DNA from: Thermococcus gorgonarius | GTDB lineage: Archaea > Methanobacteriota_B > Thermococci > Thermococcales > Thermococcaceae | Assembly (NCBI RefSeq): GCF_002214385.1 | Contig: NZ_CP014855.1 | Location: 1,550,001 to 1,614,000, forward strand | Reading direction: 5' to 3' | DNA: 64,000 bases | Shown here: positions 5,895-11,257 of the stretch, one piece after another | How the letters are laid out: each line of letters starts with the position of its first letter | How positions within the stretch are numbered: the first letter of the stretch is position 1 | Translations under genes and position numbers: made by a program | Notes under the pieces: generated by a model | The model's input: only the letters and a program-made list of their open reading frames with translations | What the model was told of the DNA's origin: nothing | Database searches by the model: none

Positions 5895-7199
5895 GTGGCC
5901 GAGGATATAGAAAGTAAGATTAGACGCCTGAGAGAACTGGGAAAGGCCGCCACAGAACCCGAAACCCCCCCGACAGCCAGACCTAAACCCGAATCCAGGT
6001 TCAGAATTCCGAGAAGGAGAATAGGGAGTATAAGGGAAAGAGAGAGAAGGAGAAGGATAATCATTGGTGCATCAATCATTGTAGTGCTCATCCTGATTGC
6101 ATCGTTTGGTGTTTACACGTGGTATTCCAATAAAAAAGCCTCCGAGCTTGAAAAAGCAAAACAGGAAAAACTACAGCTTCTAGACCAGACGTTTAAACCC
6201 TTATTAGACAAAGGATACGGAACGGAAACGTACTCCCAGCTGAGGGCAAAGATACTCCAGGCCAAGTCAAAGGAGGAACTGAACGAGATAGATATAAACA
6301 CCGCTTACGCACAGGTTCTCCAGAAATATGAGGCTGATCAGCAGAGACAGAAACAGCTGGAGTTCCAGAAAGAGCTAAACCAGACAAAAGAGAGAAAAAT
6401 ACAGGAGATAAACATCCTCTTCCAGCCGCTTCTGGAGCAGAGCGTGTCAACTCCCGTTAGAGGAAAAATCCTCGACGCAAGGAACAGTTTGATCAATCAG
6501 GTGAAGAAAGCCAACTCCATTGAGGAAGTTAACGGAACCAACCCAATTCCGATAGTGGTTTCCCTCTGGCATGAAGTGTACAAGGACAGGATAAACAGGA
6601 TGCCCGGAAGTTACGTCATCTTTGAATACAACGGCACTGCAAGGATGCTCACTAAAACAGAGGCAAAGGAATTCATAACATCGATAATGGACCTGAATGA
6701 ACTTTTGAAGTACAGGGTAAGAAAAGTGGAGTTCGTAAGGTTAGCCCTTCTCGTTCCGAGGGAGAGAGCAAATGGAGGATTCCTTAAGAAAGGAGCAAAG
6801 GTAAGAATATACACCGAGGAAGGAACGGTAGCAGACATGGGTTACATCGAAGAGATACTTATTCCAGCAACAGCTGGAGTCATTAACCTTAACGAGAACA
6901 TGGAGAGTGTATCCGGAAACGTCTCGGACTACTCCCGGTATTACTACTCCATAGACCTCGTACAGCTTCTGAGGGCTCTTGCTGCCAACGAGGCTGACAA
7001 TCCAGACGAACTCATAGCAAAGCTCAAAGACTACGGAATAAAGCTGACGAGCCTGGAGGAAGAAACTCAGCTTCAGTCTATCCCATATGGGGTTCCATAC
7101 CTGGTAATCGTAAAAGTTCCAGACATATACGTTCCAAAGATCATCTATGCCACACAGCACCAGTACAACTCCCTGACAATAGGGGAGGTACTCGGGTGA
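5895..7199 (+). CDS. DUF515-like membrane protein heading a secretion/pilus operon
   Basis: About 434 residues. A short cytoplasmic Pro/Arg-rich head is followed by one membrane span (about 55-76), a long Lys/Glu/Gln-rich coiled coil (about 78-230) and a beta-rich C-terminal domain with an SAF-like MPGSYVIFEYNGTARML start. It resembles the archaeal DUF515 family found beside type II/IV secretion ATPases. I chose GTG 5895 because GGTGGTG lies 6 nt upstream; GTG 5865 would add ten residues. It precedes the ATPase by about 30 nt, so it is probably the first gene of a four-gene operon, with an envelope structural role inferred from context. Confidence 0.75.
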   Translation: MAEDIESKIRRLRELGKAATEPETPPTARPKPESRFRIPRRRIGSIRERERRRRIIIGASIIVVLILIASFGVYTWYSNKKASELEKAKQEKLQLLDQTFKPLLDKGYGTETYSQLRAKILQAKSKEELNEIDINTAYAQVLQKYEADQQRQKQLEFQKELNQTKERKIQEINILFQPLLEQSVSTPVRGKILDARNSLINQVKKANSIEEVNGTNPIPIVVSLWHEVYKDRINRMPGSYVIFEYNGTARMLTKTEAKEFITSIMDLNELLKYRVRKVEFVRLALLVPRERANGGFLKKGAKVRIYTEEGTVADMGYIEEILIPATAGVINLNENMESVSGNVSDYSRYYYSIDLVQLLRALAANEADNPDELIAKLKDYGIKLTSLEEETQLQSIPYGVPYLVIVKVPDIYVPKIIYATQHQYNSLTIGEVLG

Positions 7200-7228: not shown

Positions 7229-9244
7229 GTGGGAGAGGAAAAAAAGAAGAAGGAAAACTCCAGCTCCTGGATAGACGAGATACTTAGAGGGAAAAGCGAT
7301 CCCCTAGCAAATGTCTTCGAAAAGGAGAAAGAGAGCAAACAGACAGAAGAGATTCCTCTGCTATCAACGTCGTCCTCACCATTAGAGGAAATACTCGGCG
7401 GCAGAAGTGAAGAACCCCCCAAGAAGGCAAAGGATGAGGAAAAGAAAAAAATCTCTTCTGGAGCAGATATTATTTCAGCATTACTTGGAGGGAATGCAGA
7501 AGAAAAAACAATAACCTCTCTCCAAGAAGAAAAAACAGAAAAAGAAACGAAAAAAGAAACACCACCAAAGCCATCCGGCGTTGACATGCTCGGGGCGATC
7601 TTGGGTGGAGGAAGCTCAAGCCAGACAAAACCCCAAACACCAAAAAGAACAGCACCTCCGTTGCCGCTCCCCAAACCCAGAGCATCTCCGGGCCTCCAAG
7701 CTATAATTGGGGAGACCAGGTCTGAGGAGATATCCTATGACAGAAAGGCTCAAATTCTGGATGCTTACGGTAACGTAAGAATTTTGAAGATAAAGGAGGA
7801 ACCGGTCCCAATTTACGAACTTCGCCTTCCAAAACTTTCCAGAGAGGAAGAAGAACTCCTCGGGAGAGTCAGAGAAAGGGCAATAACTGAAATTCAGGTA
7901 GATCCCAGCATGATACCAAATTACGAGGAGAGGCGCAGGATATTCATGAGAGAAGTCAAAAGAATGCTGAAGGAAGCGGCGCCAAATCTATCGGAAGGAA
8001 GAATAGAGGTTATGGCCGAGCTGATAGTCCAGAATATGCTCGGATATGGCCTTCTGGATCCTCTCGTGAGGGACGACAACCTCGAGGAAATAATGGTCAT
8101 AGGAACCAACAAGCCAGTCTACGTTTGGCACAGGCGCTTCTACATGTGCAAGACCAACATAGTGTTCAAAGATGAGAGGGATATACTAAATATCATAGAG
8201 AGAATAGCCAGAGAAGTCGGGAGAAGGATTGACCAGCAGAGTCCTCTCCTCGACGCCCGCTTACCCGATGGAAGCCGTGTTAACGCCACAATACCCCCCA
8301 TAAGCCTTGATGGACCCACAATAACAATCCGTAAGTTCAAAAAGGACCCCCTGACGATAATAGACCTGATAAAGTACGGTACTCTGAACAGTGAGGTTGC
8401 TGCCTTTCTATGGCTCTTGGTTGATGGCCTTGGAGTAAAACCCGCGAACATTCTAGTGGCGGGAGGAACAGGTTCCGGAAAAACGACAACGCTCAACGCA
8501 CTGGCAATGTTCATACCACCAAGTGAGCGTGTTATCAGCATAGAGGACACCGCAGAACTCCAGCTTCCAGTGGAACACTGGGTTCGCCTCGAAACCAGAC
8601 CGCCAAACCTCGAAGGAAAGGGAGAAGTAACTATGGATGATCTAGTGAGGAACACCCTGCGTATGCGTCCGGATAGAATTATAGTCGGTGAGGTTCGCGG
8701 TCCCGAAGCGAGAACAATGTTTACAGCCATGAACACGGGACACGATGGTTGTATGGGAACCATACACGCCAACAGCGCCAGGGAGACAATAGTCAGGCTT
8801 GAGAGCCCGCCGATGAACGTCCCAAGAATAATGATCCCGGCTCTCGACATTATACTGATGCAGGTCCGCTTCCACAGCAGGAAAAAGGGAACCGTAAGGA
8901 GGGTAACTGAGATAGCAGAGGTTTCAGGAATAGAAGGAGATAACATACAGCTCAACAAGCTCTACAAGTATGACCCGGCAAGAGATGAACTATTGCCTAC
9001 AGAGGTTCCGAGCAGAGTAATGAACGAACTGTCCCGGCACACCGGGATGAGCATAAGCGAGCTGGAACTGGAACGAGAGAAGAGAAAGATAATCCTGGAA
9101 TGGATGATAGAAAAGGGAATCAGGAGCATCGAAGAAGTCGGCCACTACATCAAGATGTTCTACATTGACGAGGAAGCCTTGCTTGAAAAAATTGAGAGGG
9201 AAAGCTCCTCCGAACTCCAGGAGCAGATTCGGGCCCTAAAGTGA
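7229..9244 (+). CDS. Type II/IV secretion system ATPase (TadA/FlaI/GspE family)
   Basis: About 671 residues. The C-terminal 450 form a secretion ATPase: Walker A GGTGSGKT (about 412-419), an Asp-box region around SIEDTAELQ, Walker B IIVGEVRG (about 484-491), and a His-box with MGTIHANS. Such hexameric ATPases drive pilus or archaellum assembly from the cytoplasm. The first 160 residues are low complexity, Lys/Glu/Ser rich, and carry four copies of a short motif ending in (I/L)L-x-G. GTG 7229 has GGGTGA upstream; GTG 7220 would add three residues. Two platform proteins follow directly, so this is the motor of that machine. Confidence 0.92.
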   Translation: MGEEKKKKENSSSWIDEILRGKSDPLANVFEKEKESKQTEEIPLLSTSSSPLEEILGGRSEEPPKKAKDEEKKKISSGADIISALLGGNAEEKTITSLQEEKTEKETKKETPPKPSGVDMLGAILGGGSSSQTKPQTPKRTAPPLPLPKPRASPGLQAIIGETRSEEISYDRKAQILDAYGNVRILKIKEEPVPIYELRLPKLSREEEELLGRVRERAITEIQVDPSMIPNYEERRRIFMREVKRMLKEAAPNLSEGRIEVMAELIVQNMLGYGLLDPLVRDDNLEEIMVIGTNKPVYVWHRRFYMCKTNIVFKDERDILNIIERIAREVGRRIDQQSPLLDARLPDGSRVNATIPPISLDGPTITIRKFKKDPLTIIDLIKYGTLNSEVAAFLWLLVDGLGVKPANILVAGGTGSGKTTTLNALAMFIPPSERVISIEDTAELQLPVEHWVRLETRPPNLEGKGEVTMDDLVRNTLRMRPDRIIVGEVRGPEARTMFTAMNTGHDGCMGTIHANSARETIVRLESPPMNVPRIMIPALDIILMQVRFHSRKKGTVRRVTEIAEVSGIEGDNIQLNKLYKYDPARDELLPTEVPSRVMNELSRHTGMSISELELEREKRKIILEWMIEKGIRSIEEVGHYIKMFYIDEEALLEKIERESSSELQEQIRALK

Positions 9245-9258
9245 GTTGGTGATGAGCA

Positions 9259-10335
9259 ATGGGGATTATCGAATCGTTCCTCAACTTCCTTGAAAGACTG
9301 GGCGCAACCACTATAGAAGTGACAGAGAGGCCCATTAGGCGAATACCCAAGACAGGAACCATTCAGGAGAGACTGAAAATTCTCAGAGAACTCCAAAAGG
9401 AAATAGAGGAGAGTCTAGAGAGTAAACAGGAAAAGGAAATAGAAAACATAATTGAACTGAGAAAGGAAGAGCTCAAAACTCCCTTTGGGGAAAGGCTTGC
9501 TGAGGCCTTTCTGAACAGGTTTAAAGGTCCGATTCAGTCGATCACTCAGTCGATAAAAGGCCTCGACTACGACCTTTACAGGGCCAACATAAGGATGTCC
9601 AAGGAGAAGTACGTTGCCCTCATGATAATAACTTCGATAATGGTTGGGGTATCCTCCTTTGCATTTGCCCTGCTCATTGAGATGGATCTTTTCACATCGG
9701 CGCTTATATCCCTCCTAGGATTCATAGGTGGCTTTCTCTACATGAGAAACTACCCGAAGATAGTGTGGAGAAGAAGAGTAGCAGAGGTCGAGAAAGCACT
9801 CCCCTACGTTCTCAGACACATAGCATCCCTACTGAGTGCGGGCGTTGGTATTGCCGAAGCCCTCGTTTCGGTGGCAAAAGCCGACTACGGACCCGCATCC
9901 GAGGAGTTTGAGCTCATAGTTAGGGACATGAGGGCAGGAGCATCGTTTGAAGATGCCTTGGAGAAGTTCGAGGAGAAGATGGGATCGGAGAACGTAAGCA
10001 GAGTAGTGAAGCAGATACTCAGGGCCATAAAGTTTGGTGGAAACCTGGCGGAGATCCTCTACAAGATGGCCGAGGATTTCGCCTTCGAGTACAGGATGAA
10101 GCTGGTGGAGTACGTCCAGAAGGTCAACGGTATAGCGTTTATATACATGTTCATGACGATAGTGATGCCGACGATGTTCGTGGTAGCTGTTCTGGCGGGA
10201 TCAGCTTTCAGCGCCGCAGGCGGTGGTGGTGGAACGGCTATTTCTCCCGGAGCACTGGCAGTTCTTCTGCTGTTCGCCTTCCCTATGCTCTCCCTGATAA
10301 TAGTTATGATGATAAAGCGCAGTGAGCCGAGGTGA
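9259..10335 (+). CDS. Type II secretion F-domain membrane protein (TadB-like)
   Basis: 358 residues. A cytoplasmic, charged N-terminal part of about 110 residues is followed by T2SSF-type architecture: paired spans at about 118-160, a cytoplasmic four-helix region with LPYVLRHIASLLSAGVGIAEAL, and spans at about 300-352 around a Gly/Ala-rich loop. This is the membrane platform that the ATPase turns. ATG 9259 has GGTGATGAGC just upstream, within 15 nt of the ATPase stop. It is paired with the next gene, as TadB/TadC or FlaJ-like pairs usually are. Confidence 0.88.
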   Translation: MGIIESFLNFLERLGATTIEVTERPIRRIPKTGTIQERLKILRELQKEIEESLESKQEKEIENIIELRKEELKTPFGERLAEAFLNRFKGPIQSITQSIKGLDYDLYRANIRMSKEKYVALMIITSIMVGVSSFAFALLIEMDLFTSALISLLGFIGGFLYMRNYPKIVWRRRVAEVEKALPYVLRHIASLLSAGVGIAEALVSVAKADYGPASEEFELIVRDMRAGASFEDALEKFEEKMGSENVSRVVKQILRAIKFGGNLAEILYKMAEDFAFEYRMKLVEYVQKVNGIAFIYMFMTIVMPTMFVVAVLAGSAFSAAGGGGGTAISPGALAVLLLFAFPMLSLIIVMMIKRSEPR

Positions 10336-10339
10336 TAGA

Positions 10340-11257
10340 ATGCCAAGAGCACCAAAGGCAGGTAGCATTGGGGTTACCCTAACGAGGATCCTAGAGCGTA
10401 CTCTACCAGCCAAATGGCTGAAAAGGTACGAAATCTTCGTTTATTCGGCGGGAATAGAGTTCCTAGCAATTGAATACCTGCTCATTTCTATTCTGCTGGG
10501 CGTGATTGCAGGAGCCGCGGCAATAATTCTCATCCCTCCAATCTACGCAGTGCTAATCACAGTAGTGATCTTCGCGGGCATGGCCTTTCTGTACCCCTAC
10601 TGGAGGATAGCAAAAAGAACGGAGGAAATGGAGAAAAACCTTCCCGATGCATTCTTCTATCTCGCAAGCTCATTGAGAGCAGGTATCTCTTTCTCGGAGG
10701 CGCTGGAGGATCTCACAACTGCCAAATTTGGTGCTCTTACTGAAGAGTTTAAGAGGGTGGTAAACGAGATAAAGAGAGGTAGATCCACCGTTGAAGCACT
10801 CCGGGTTATGGCACTCCGCAACAAGAAGTCTCCAGTTATATACCGCTCGCTCATGATAATAATTGAGGCCCTAGAGAGAGGTGCCCCGATGAGTGATGTC
10901 TTGGTTTACGTTGCCAATGACGTCAGGGAGATACTCAGGATAAGGCAGGAGAGAAAGGCCTCAACCGGAATGCAGATGATGTTCTTTATAATAACGAGCG
11001 GATTCATAGGGCCAGCAATACTTGGAATAGTGGGGAAGCTTATGTACGAGATGATCCAGGGAGAGGCGGCTGCCCAAATACCAACAATGATAAACATCCT
11101 TCTGGGTTTTGTTGTAATACAGGGTATTGTGTCAGGGCTAGGAATTGGCGTTATAAGGGAAGGAGAGTTCTCAGCGGGTCTGAAGTACGGGATAATGCTG
11201 GCAGTTATGGGAGCCCTAGTCTTTCAGGGAATGAAGTTTGTGAACATAAGCTTCTAA
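10340..11257 (+). CDS. Type II secretion F-domain membrane protein (TadC-like)
   Basis: 305 residues with the same topology as the gene before it: spans at about 42-82, a cytoplasmic T2SSF block (LPDAFFYLASSLRAGISFSEAL), then further spans to the C-terminus. ATG 10340 is preferred because GAGGTGATAG precedes it; GTG 10322 would overlap the upstream gene. It is the last gene of the operon. No prepilin gene with a class III signal peptide is seen nearby, so the substrate pilin is encoded elsewhere or is unrecognised. Transcription probably ends at the inverted repeat at 11256-11290. Confidence 0.88.
   Translation: MPRAPKAGSIGVTLTRILERTLPAKWLKRYEIFVYSAGIEFLAIEYLLISILLGVIAGAAAIILIPPIYAVLITVVIFAGMAFLYPYWRIAKRTEEMEKNLPDAFFYLASSLRAGISFSEALEDLTTAKFGALTEEFKRVVNEIKRGRSTVEALRVMALRNKKSPVIYRSLMIIIEALERGAPMSDVLVYVANDVREILRIRQERKASTGMQMMFFIITSGFIGPAILGIVGKLMYEMIQGEAAAQIPTMINILLGFVVIQGIVSGLGIGVIREGEFSAGLKYGIMLAVMGALVFQGMKFVNISF

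Follow-up and report, generated by a model that had tools for sequence, protein, structure and literature searches.

The window analysed here, 64,000 nucleotides of the Thermococcus gorgonarius genome (NZ_CP014855.1, positions 1,550,001 to 1,614,000), carries in this order a DUF515 gene, a gene for a motor ATPase, and two genes for T2SSF platform proteins (Table 1). In the accessible part of the survey by Makarova et al. (2016, PMC4858521), these four components make up the clade-1 archaeal type IV pilus set of thermococci and class I methanogens. Orthologues of the ATPase beside two TadC-like genes occur in both groups, and we conclude that the ATPase is the motor of an archaeal clade 1 type IV (Tad-like) pilus. 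The protein matched T2SSE in Pfam (E=1.7e-52), and the matches in a profile search were PDB 2oap, CpaF (8rkd/9e24), and FlaI (4ii7). Its scores were below the cut-offs of both the NCBIfam TadA-family model TIGR03819 (271; cut-off, 373) and the FlaI model (326; cut-off, 550), the former meaning that it falls outside the bacterial CpaF/TadA lineage. GTG at 7229 is the likely start codon: it is closely preceded by GGTGAG, a likely ribosome-binding site, and almost all orthologues begin a few residues before the KKKK sequence.

Table 1. Positions in the window of the genes and sequence features of the pilus motor locus
Feature	Positions	Strand	Basis
DUF515 protein, putative RcpC/CpaB-like fold, candidate partner	5895..7199	+	Pfam DUF515, E=1.9e-87
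Cytoplasmic N-terminal helix of DUF515 protein, AEDIESKIRRLRELG	5898..5942	+	Near-invariant in alignment
Clade-1 type IV pilus motor ATPase (T2SSE/CpaF/FlaI-like)	7229..9244	+	671 aa, open from GTG 7229
Disordered N-terminal tail of ATPase, about residues 1-165	7229..7723	+	AlphaFold2 pLDDT; variable linkers
Motif 1, SWIDEILRG, with KKKK just before it	7265..7291	+	SWI[DEN]E[IV][IL] in orthologues; model helix 14-19
Weaker motif, DPLANVFE (orthologues PLENIL/LLENVL/TLEAIL)	7298..7321	+	Alignment; model helix 25-31
Motif SPLEEILGG	7376..7402	+	Pattern match
Motif ADIISALLGG	7463..7492	+	Pattern match; model helix 78-85
Motif VDMLGAILGG (orthologues TGADILGEIL)	7580..7609	+	Pattern match, alignment
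Core-proximal motif PGLQAIIGE (orthologues STLQDILG)	7688..7714	+	Alignment; model helix 156-159
First T2SSF/TadC-type platform protein	9259..10335	+	Pfam T2SSF, E=3e-24
Second T2SSF/TadC-type platform protein	10340..11257	+	Pfam T2SSF, E=3.2e-18

We take the ATPase to be the KlbA protein of the intein literature. More than half of the Thermococcaceae orthologues (e.g. L009 and L027-L060) contain an in-frame insert of about 500 residues at a conserved MNTGH site near residue 512, as would be expected for what is presumably the known KlbA intein; the copy in the window does not have the insert. Only two ATPase matches were obtained in the window genome (G000), the present gene and, near position 159801, an ORF of about 620 aa with 34% identity to it, and the ATPase search found no FlaI-like archaellum ATPase in this genome, unlike in most relatives. 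One Methanococcales genome contains the ATPase gene four times (G254:C1:1057851-1075283), with identical scores and at intervals of exactly 5405 bases, possibly representing a tandem array of the pilus locus or an assembly artefact.

The DUF515 protein had no significant sequence relative in the PDB. The top Foldseek match of its predicted structure was RcpC (9gzr; prob 0.97, E 0.012, with low TM-scores), and the protein may, on the basis of this model, be a relative of RcpC/CpaB, in which case the operon would resemble a Tad motor unit. Its N-terminal helix, (M)AEDIExKIRRLRELG, is near-invariant, whereas the overall identity among Thermococcaceae is only 35-40%; the long Ser/Thr-rich loop found in most relatives is absent from the protein in the window. 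The first platform protein (TadC1) also starts with a conserved peptide (FLERLG(G/A)KTIEV-like, window 9259-9330), which is similar to the motif of the ATPase tail described below.

The folded core of the ATPase is preceded by a tail in which five clear copies and one weaker copy of a short motif were observed. The consensus is S/P/T-[LI]-[EDQ]-[EDS]-[IL]-[LI]-G-G, a sequence predicted to form a capped short helix. The original prediction described four such motifs at about 7268, 7379, 7466, and 7583, and these were placed correctly to within a few bases (7265, 7376, 7463, and 7580). All four are real, and the fifth copy next to the core as well as the weaker copy had been overlooked. The separation of 28-37 residues given for them is only approximately right, as the start-to-start distances between the five clear copies are 37, 29, 39, and 36 residues, and the proposed shared core, (I/L)L-x-G, is better written as [LI]-x-x-[IL]-[LI]-[GSK]. 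The only domain match in the tail was DUF2076 at a sub-threshold E value (0.041). When the tail in the window was shuffled with its composition retained, 0.38 matches to the regular expression were expected, as opposed to the five observed, and none of 500 shuffles attained five copies. A similar excess over shuffled sequences was found in nearly every orthologue.

The absence of the motifs from orthologues in other Thermococcus species had been set beforehand as the observation that would speak against the idea. The motifs survived this comparison: SWI[DEN]E[IV][IL] was found in all 57 readable Thermococcaceae tails, and also in a 58th genome (G059/L026), there in another frame owing to an apparent frameshift. 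In that genome the ATPase frame is broken after the tail and the match to MinD (see below) is partial too; perhaps both are sequencing errors. From the 57 genomes we collected 265 copies, which yielded one consensus with helix-cap preferences, [S/T/P/D/W]-[L 75%, I 25%]-[E/D/Q]-[E/D/S]-[I 85%]-[L 88%]-[G/S/K]-[G/K]. With a wider pattern, each tail has three to seven copies, spaced by a median of 27 residues (range 11-69). The hydrophobic fraction is 0.49 within the motifs and 0.12 elsewhere in the tail. The linkers differ in both length and sequence among orthologues. Amino acid identity was 0.86 in the motifs, 0.62 in the linkers, and 0.93 in the core; the motif value is biased somewhat upward by the choice of motif positions by hydrophobic pattern, although the contrast with the linkers is large nonetheless. 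Pairwise counts in seven groups of close relatives gave pN/pS values of 0.13 for the motifs, 0.37 for the linkers, and 0.064 for the core. At the sequence level, motifs that are conserved, linkers that drift, and a copy number that varies together characterize an array of short linear motifs. In L038, a genome with extra TGASFLEGIL copies, Tandem Repeats Finder detected no recent tandem duplication at the DNA level.

Related peptides were also found beyond Thermococcus. The ATPase tails of G122 (VKDLIGG and DLLRDILGKG), G127 (VLSRLLGET), and L093 (DIASILGG) contain recognizable copies. The tailed ATPases of Methanobacteriales have two copies, MKDKRKEILKEILGEF...F(D/N)I(D/E)KI: the protein begins with M(K/R)xKRKxILK(E/D)(I/L)LGEF, followed by an acidic linker of 20-80 residues and, in most of them, by F(D/N/K)(I/V)(D/E)K(I/V). 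In one member of this order (G185, tail L213), the region between the two motifs contains an acidic repeat, EEPKAEKIEEEFFPE. The ATPases of Methanococcales have one N-terminal peptide, MG(L/I)(L/F)D(R/K)IQ-like (e.g. MGLFDRIQKK), which is possibly related to the tail motif, and those of Methanobrevibacter are entirely without a tail. Judged from these peptides, the tail motif predates Thermococcus.

An AlphaFold2 monomer model was built on a 45-row alignment. The core was mostly predicted with pLDDT >90, whereas most of residues 1-167 had pLDDT <50, in agreement with the disorder originally proposed for this region. Within the tail, four of the six motif sites coincided with predicted short helices (residues 14-19, 25-31, 78-85, and 156-159), and no confident contact between tail and core was seen in the monomer. 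A free disordered arm would be expected to score this low in a model of this kind, and the low confidence is no evidence of a bound state.

A protein that might read the motifs is suggested by the distribution of MinD/FleN-type ATPases. This family is an expected component of clade-1 pili according to the available part of the survey (PMC4858521), and in Caulobacter the related CpaE has been modelled as six dimers ringing CpaF (PMC13170226). An initial MinD-family search gave 32-47 bits in tail-less Methanobrevibacter, where the orthologue is missing, and at least 158 bits in the other tested genomes. We then compared 90 Methanobacteriales, 88 of which have the ATPase. The 19 genomes with a tailed ATPase are exactly the 19 with a MinD orthologue (405-504 bits), a further 69 combine a tail-less ATPase with the absence of a MinD orthologue (best, 64 bits), and two have neither; the N-termini of the 19 tailed and about 34 of the tail-less proteins were read directly, and the others were judged by where the match begins. 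One genome scored as tail-less (G217) has kept a long N-terminus in which the only motif-like sequence is NWIDDLKF. As a tree of the ATPase cores is compatible with a single change, the match may reflect one evolutionary event, such as one loss on one branch, in which many other genes could have gone too, and the Fisher value for the association should not be taken as a probability. Elsewhere, the strict orthologue was found in 46 of 50 Thermococcaceae (at least 449 bits) and in 19 of 23 Methanococcales (at least 235 bits). The Thermococcaceae G010 and G028 keep motif-bearing tails with only a MinD paralogue of about 220 bits, and the Methanococcales G255-G257 keep the N-terminal peptide with only a MinD of 207-210 bits; in G270 (Methanococcales) the peptide is still there and no MinD match was obtained at E<=1e-25. 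These six genomes rule out the strict MinD orthologue as a universal partner.

The MinD protein of the window genome passes the TIGR01969 minD_arch model. Its C-terminus, RVFKAIFGGKR, resembles by eye the membrane-targeting helices of MinD, and MinD proteins generally finish in such short basic-hydrophobic sequences. The gene lies at position 213131, outside the pilus operon. Its end is overlapped by a gene for a small membrane protein of 85 aa with one likely transmembrane segment (L290:7348-7605), which is a possible partner of MinD.

Two explanations that need no protein partner can be considered together. Hydrophobic clusters could arise by chance in low-complexity sequence, and the motif is indeed short and the composition biased, but the shuffles and the contrast in selection between motifs and linkers rule this out, and the depth of conservation opposes it as well; we find it hardly credible. 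Alternatively, as the motifs are amphipathic and rich in W, I, and L, they could be membrane-binding helices. This is highly improbable, since the helices are too short and the residues on their polar side are acidic (E/D), not basic. An acidic helix is unfavourable on the anionic archaeal membrane.

Among protein partners, the choice is less clear. The motifs might dock on the motor itself, either within their own subunit or on an adjacent one, and control ATP turnover or oligomerisation; the last motif lies directly beside the core, and truncation of the disordered region of CpaF tended to increase ATPase activity (PMC12019362), but the monomer model lacks a confident tail-core contact and the core is kept in tail-less orthologues, so we regard self-docking as quite unlikely. 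Binding to the TadC-type platform proteins through their cytoplasmic regions would involve products of the same operon and would accord with the predicted contact between the three-helix bundles of CpaF and the N-terminal helices of CpaG/CpaH (PMC12019362) and with the conservation of the TadC1 peptide in tailed lineages. Platform proteins are still present in tail-less methanogens, and we consider this reading unlikely. We judge equally unlikely that the motifs bind the DUF515 protein, tying the motor to a membrane ring. Its gene adjoins that of the ATPase, and its N-terminal helix, by far the most conserved part of the protein, is basic and hydrophobic, could complement the acidic motifs, and is lost or altered in the tail-less methanogens checked; stable pairing of two short peptides is nevertheless improbable, and G122 and G127 have a motif-bearing ATPase and a DUF515 protein without the helix, which contradicts the helix as an obligatory partner. 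The leading candidate, favoured only tentatively, is a MinD/FleN-type ATPase bound in an archaeal version of the CpaF-TadZ/CpaE contact that would place or hold the motor at the membrane; it agrees better with the distribution of the tail than the DUF515 protein does. The exact match among the 88 Methanobacteriales, the distribution in Thermococcaceae, the place of the family in clade-1 pili, and the CpaE ring argue for it; the possibility of a single event, the six exceptional genomes, the location of minD outside the operon, and the other jobs known for archaeal MinD proteins argue against it. The changes in the DUF515 helix and TadC1 peptide in the tail-less Methanobrevibacter checked fit the loss of a shared hub, and also general divergence. 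The remaining probability belongs to other partners or to several at once.

We therefore return to the tail as a whole, which we consider to be, with a probability of roughly 0.7, a multivalent docking arm in which one short linear motif recurs three to seven times per motor subunit. Such an arm had been proposed for the DUF515 protein, the platform proteins, or the substrate. The arm itself is well supported by the conservation of the motif cores against drift of the linkers, by the variation in copy number, and by the predicted disorder with helices at motifs; nothing favours the pilin substrate as partner. Each subunit of the presumably hexameric motor would bear a disordered leash rich in Lys, Glu, Ser, and Pro. 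On binding, each motif may fold into a short capped helix (about 1.5 turns), with S/T/P/D as N-cap, an acidic first turn, a hydrophobic L..IL face, and Gly as C-cap, seated in a hydrophobic groove of the partner. With its six arms, a hexamer would present some 18-40 sites of low affinity, and many weak grips could give an avid yet exchangeable attachment during motor turnover, so that the tether would hold the motor near the base and permit turnover and release. A MinD/FleN-type ATPase would stand in place of the bacterial TadZ/CpaE, and the N-terminal peptides of DUF515 (probably a second docking peptide, to judge from its conservation) and TadC1 could dock on the same hub. It is possible, though rather doubtful, that a MinD-type hub recognizes the motor tail by its repeated peptides, read as a code, and probably also the single peptides on DUF515 and the platform, and thereby positions and licenses clade-1 pili. 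If true, this would give a function to the disordered tails of pilus motors.

Among the closest known systems is class II CpaF (e.g. of Caulobacter crescentus), which likewise is a T2SSE-type motor with a disordered tail before its folded domains and two platform proteins; DUF515 would be the counterpart of its RcpC/CpaB-type partner if the match given above (E 0.012, low TM-scores) reflects a true relationship. As in that class, a disordered region precedes the folded N-domain of the window ATPase in the AlphaFold2 model. The original prediction that TadA/FlaI ATPases lack such a tail thus needs correction with respect to disorder, as class II CpaF has an N-terminal disordered region of undetermined role (PMC12019362), but holds for the motif in two alphaproteobacterial CpaF tails (L120 and L121), which are Pro/Ala-rich and contain no repeated [LI]xxILG motif. 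Against the docking reading, deletion of this region in Caulobacter had no effect on phage infection in one study (PMC11300603) and reduced pilus activity in another (PMC12019362), so that tails of this type can be dispensable for assembly. FlaI, the archaellum motor, has a homologous core but a short folded N-terminal region (PMC12019362) and no motif array. The TadZ/CpaE-CpaF pair, a MinD-family ATPase beside a pilus motor, is a candidate functional parallel, although the archaeal MinD (about 250-275 aa) is too short for the receiver domain of TadZ/CpaE and, in the window genome, its gene lies away from the operon. With its DUF515 and two TadC neighbours, the window ATPase belongs to the archaeal clade-1 pilus ATPases (Methanococcus EppA-dependent pili; KlbA), for which the accessible text of the survey makes no mention of tail motifs (PMC4858521). 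In its repeated conserved motif within drifting disordered linkers, the tail resembles multivalent short-linear-motif scaffolds. It is not a new kind of system; what it offers is a concrete way to address an open question, the role of disordered N-terminal tails in Tad and type IV pilus motors (PMC12019362). The motif, marked by evolution, is short and multicopy and can be synthesised, mutated, and used in pull-downs; the proposed connection of pilus motors with archaeal MinD proteins is testable; and with DUF515 recast as a putative relative of RcpC/CpaB, the operon could be read as that of a Tad-like machine.
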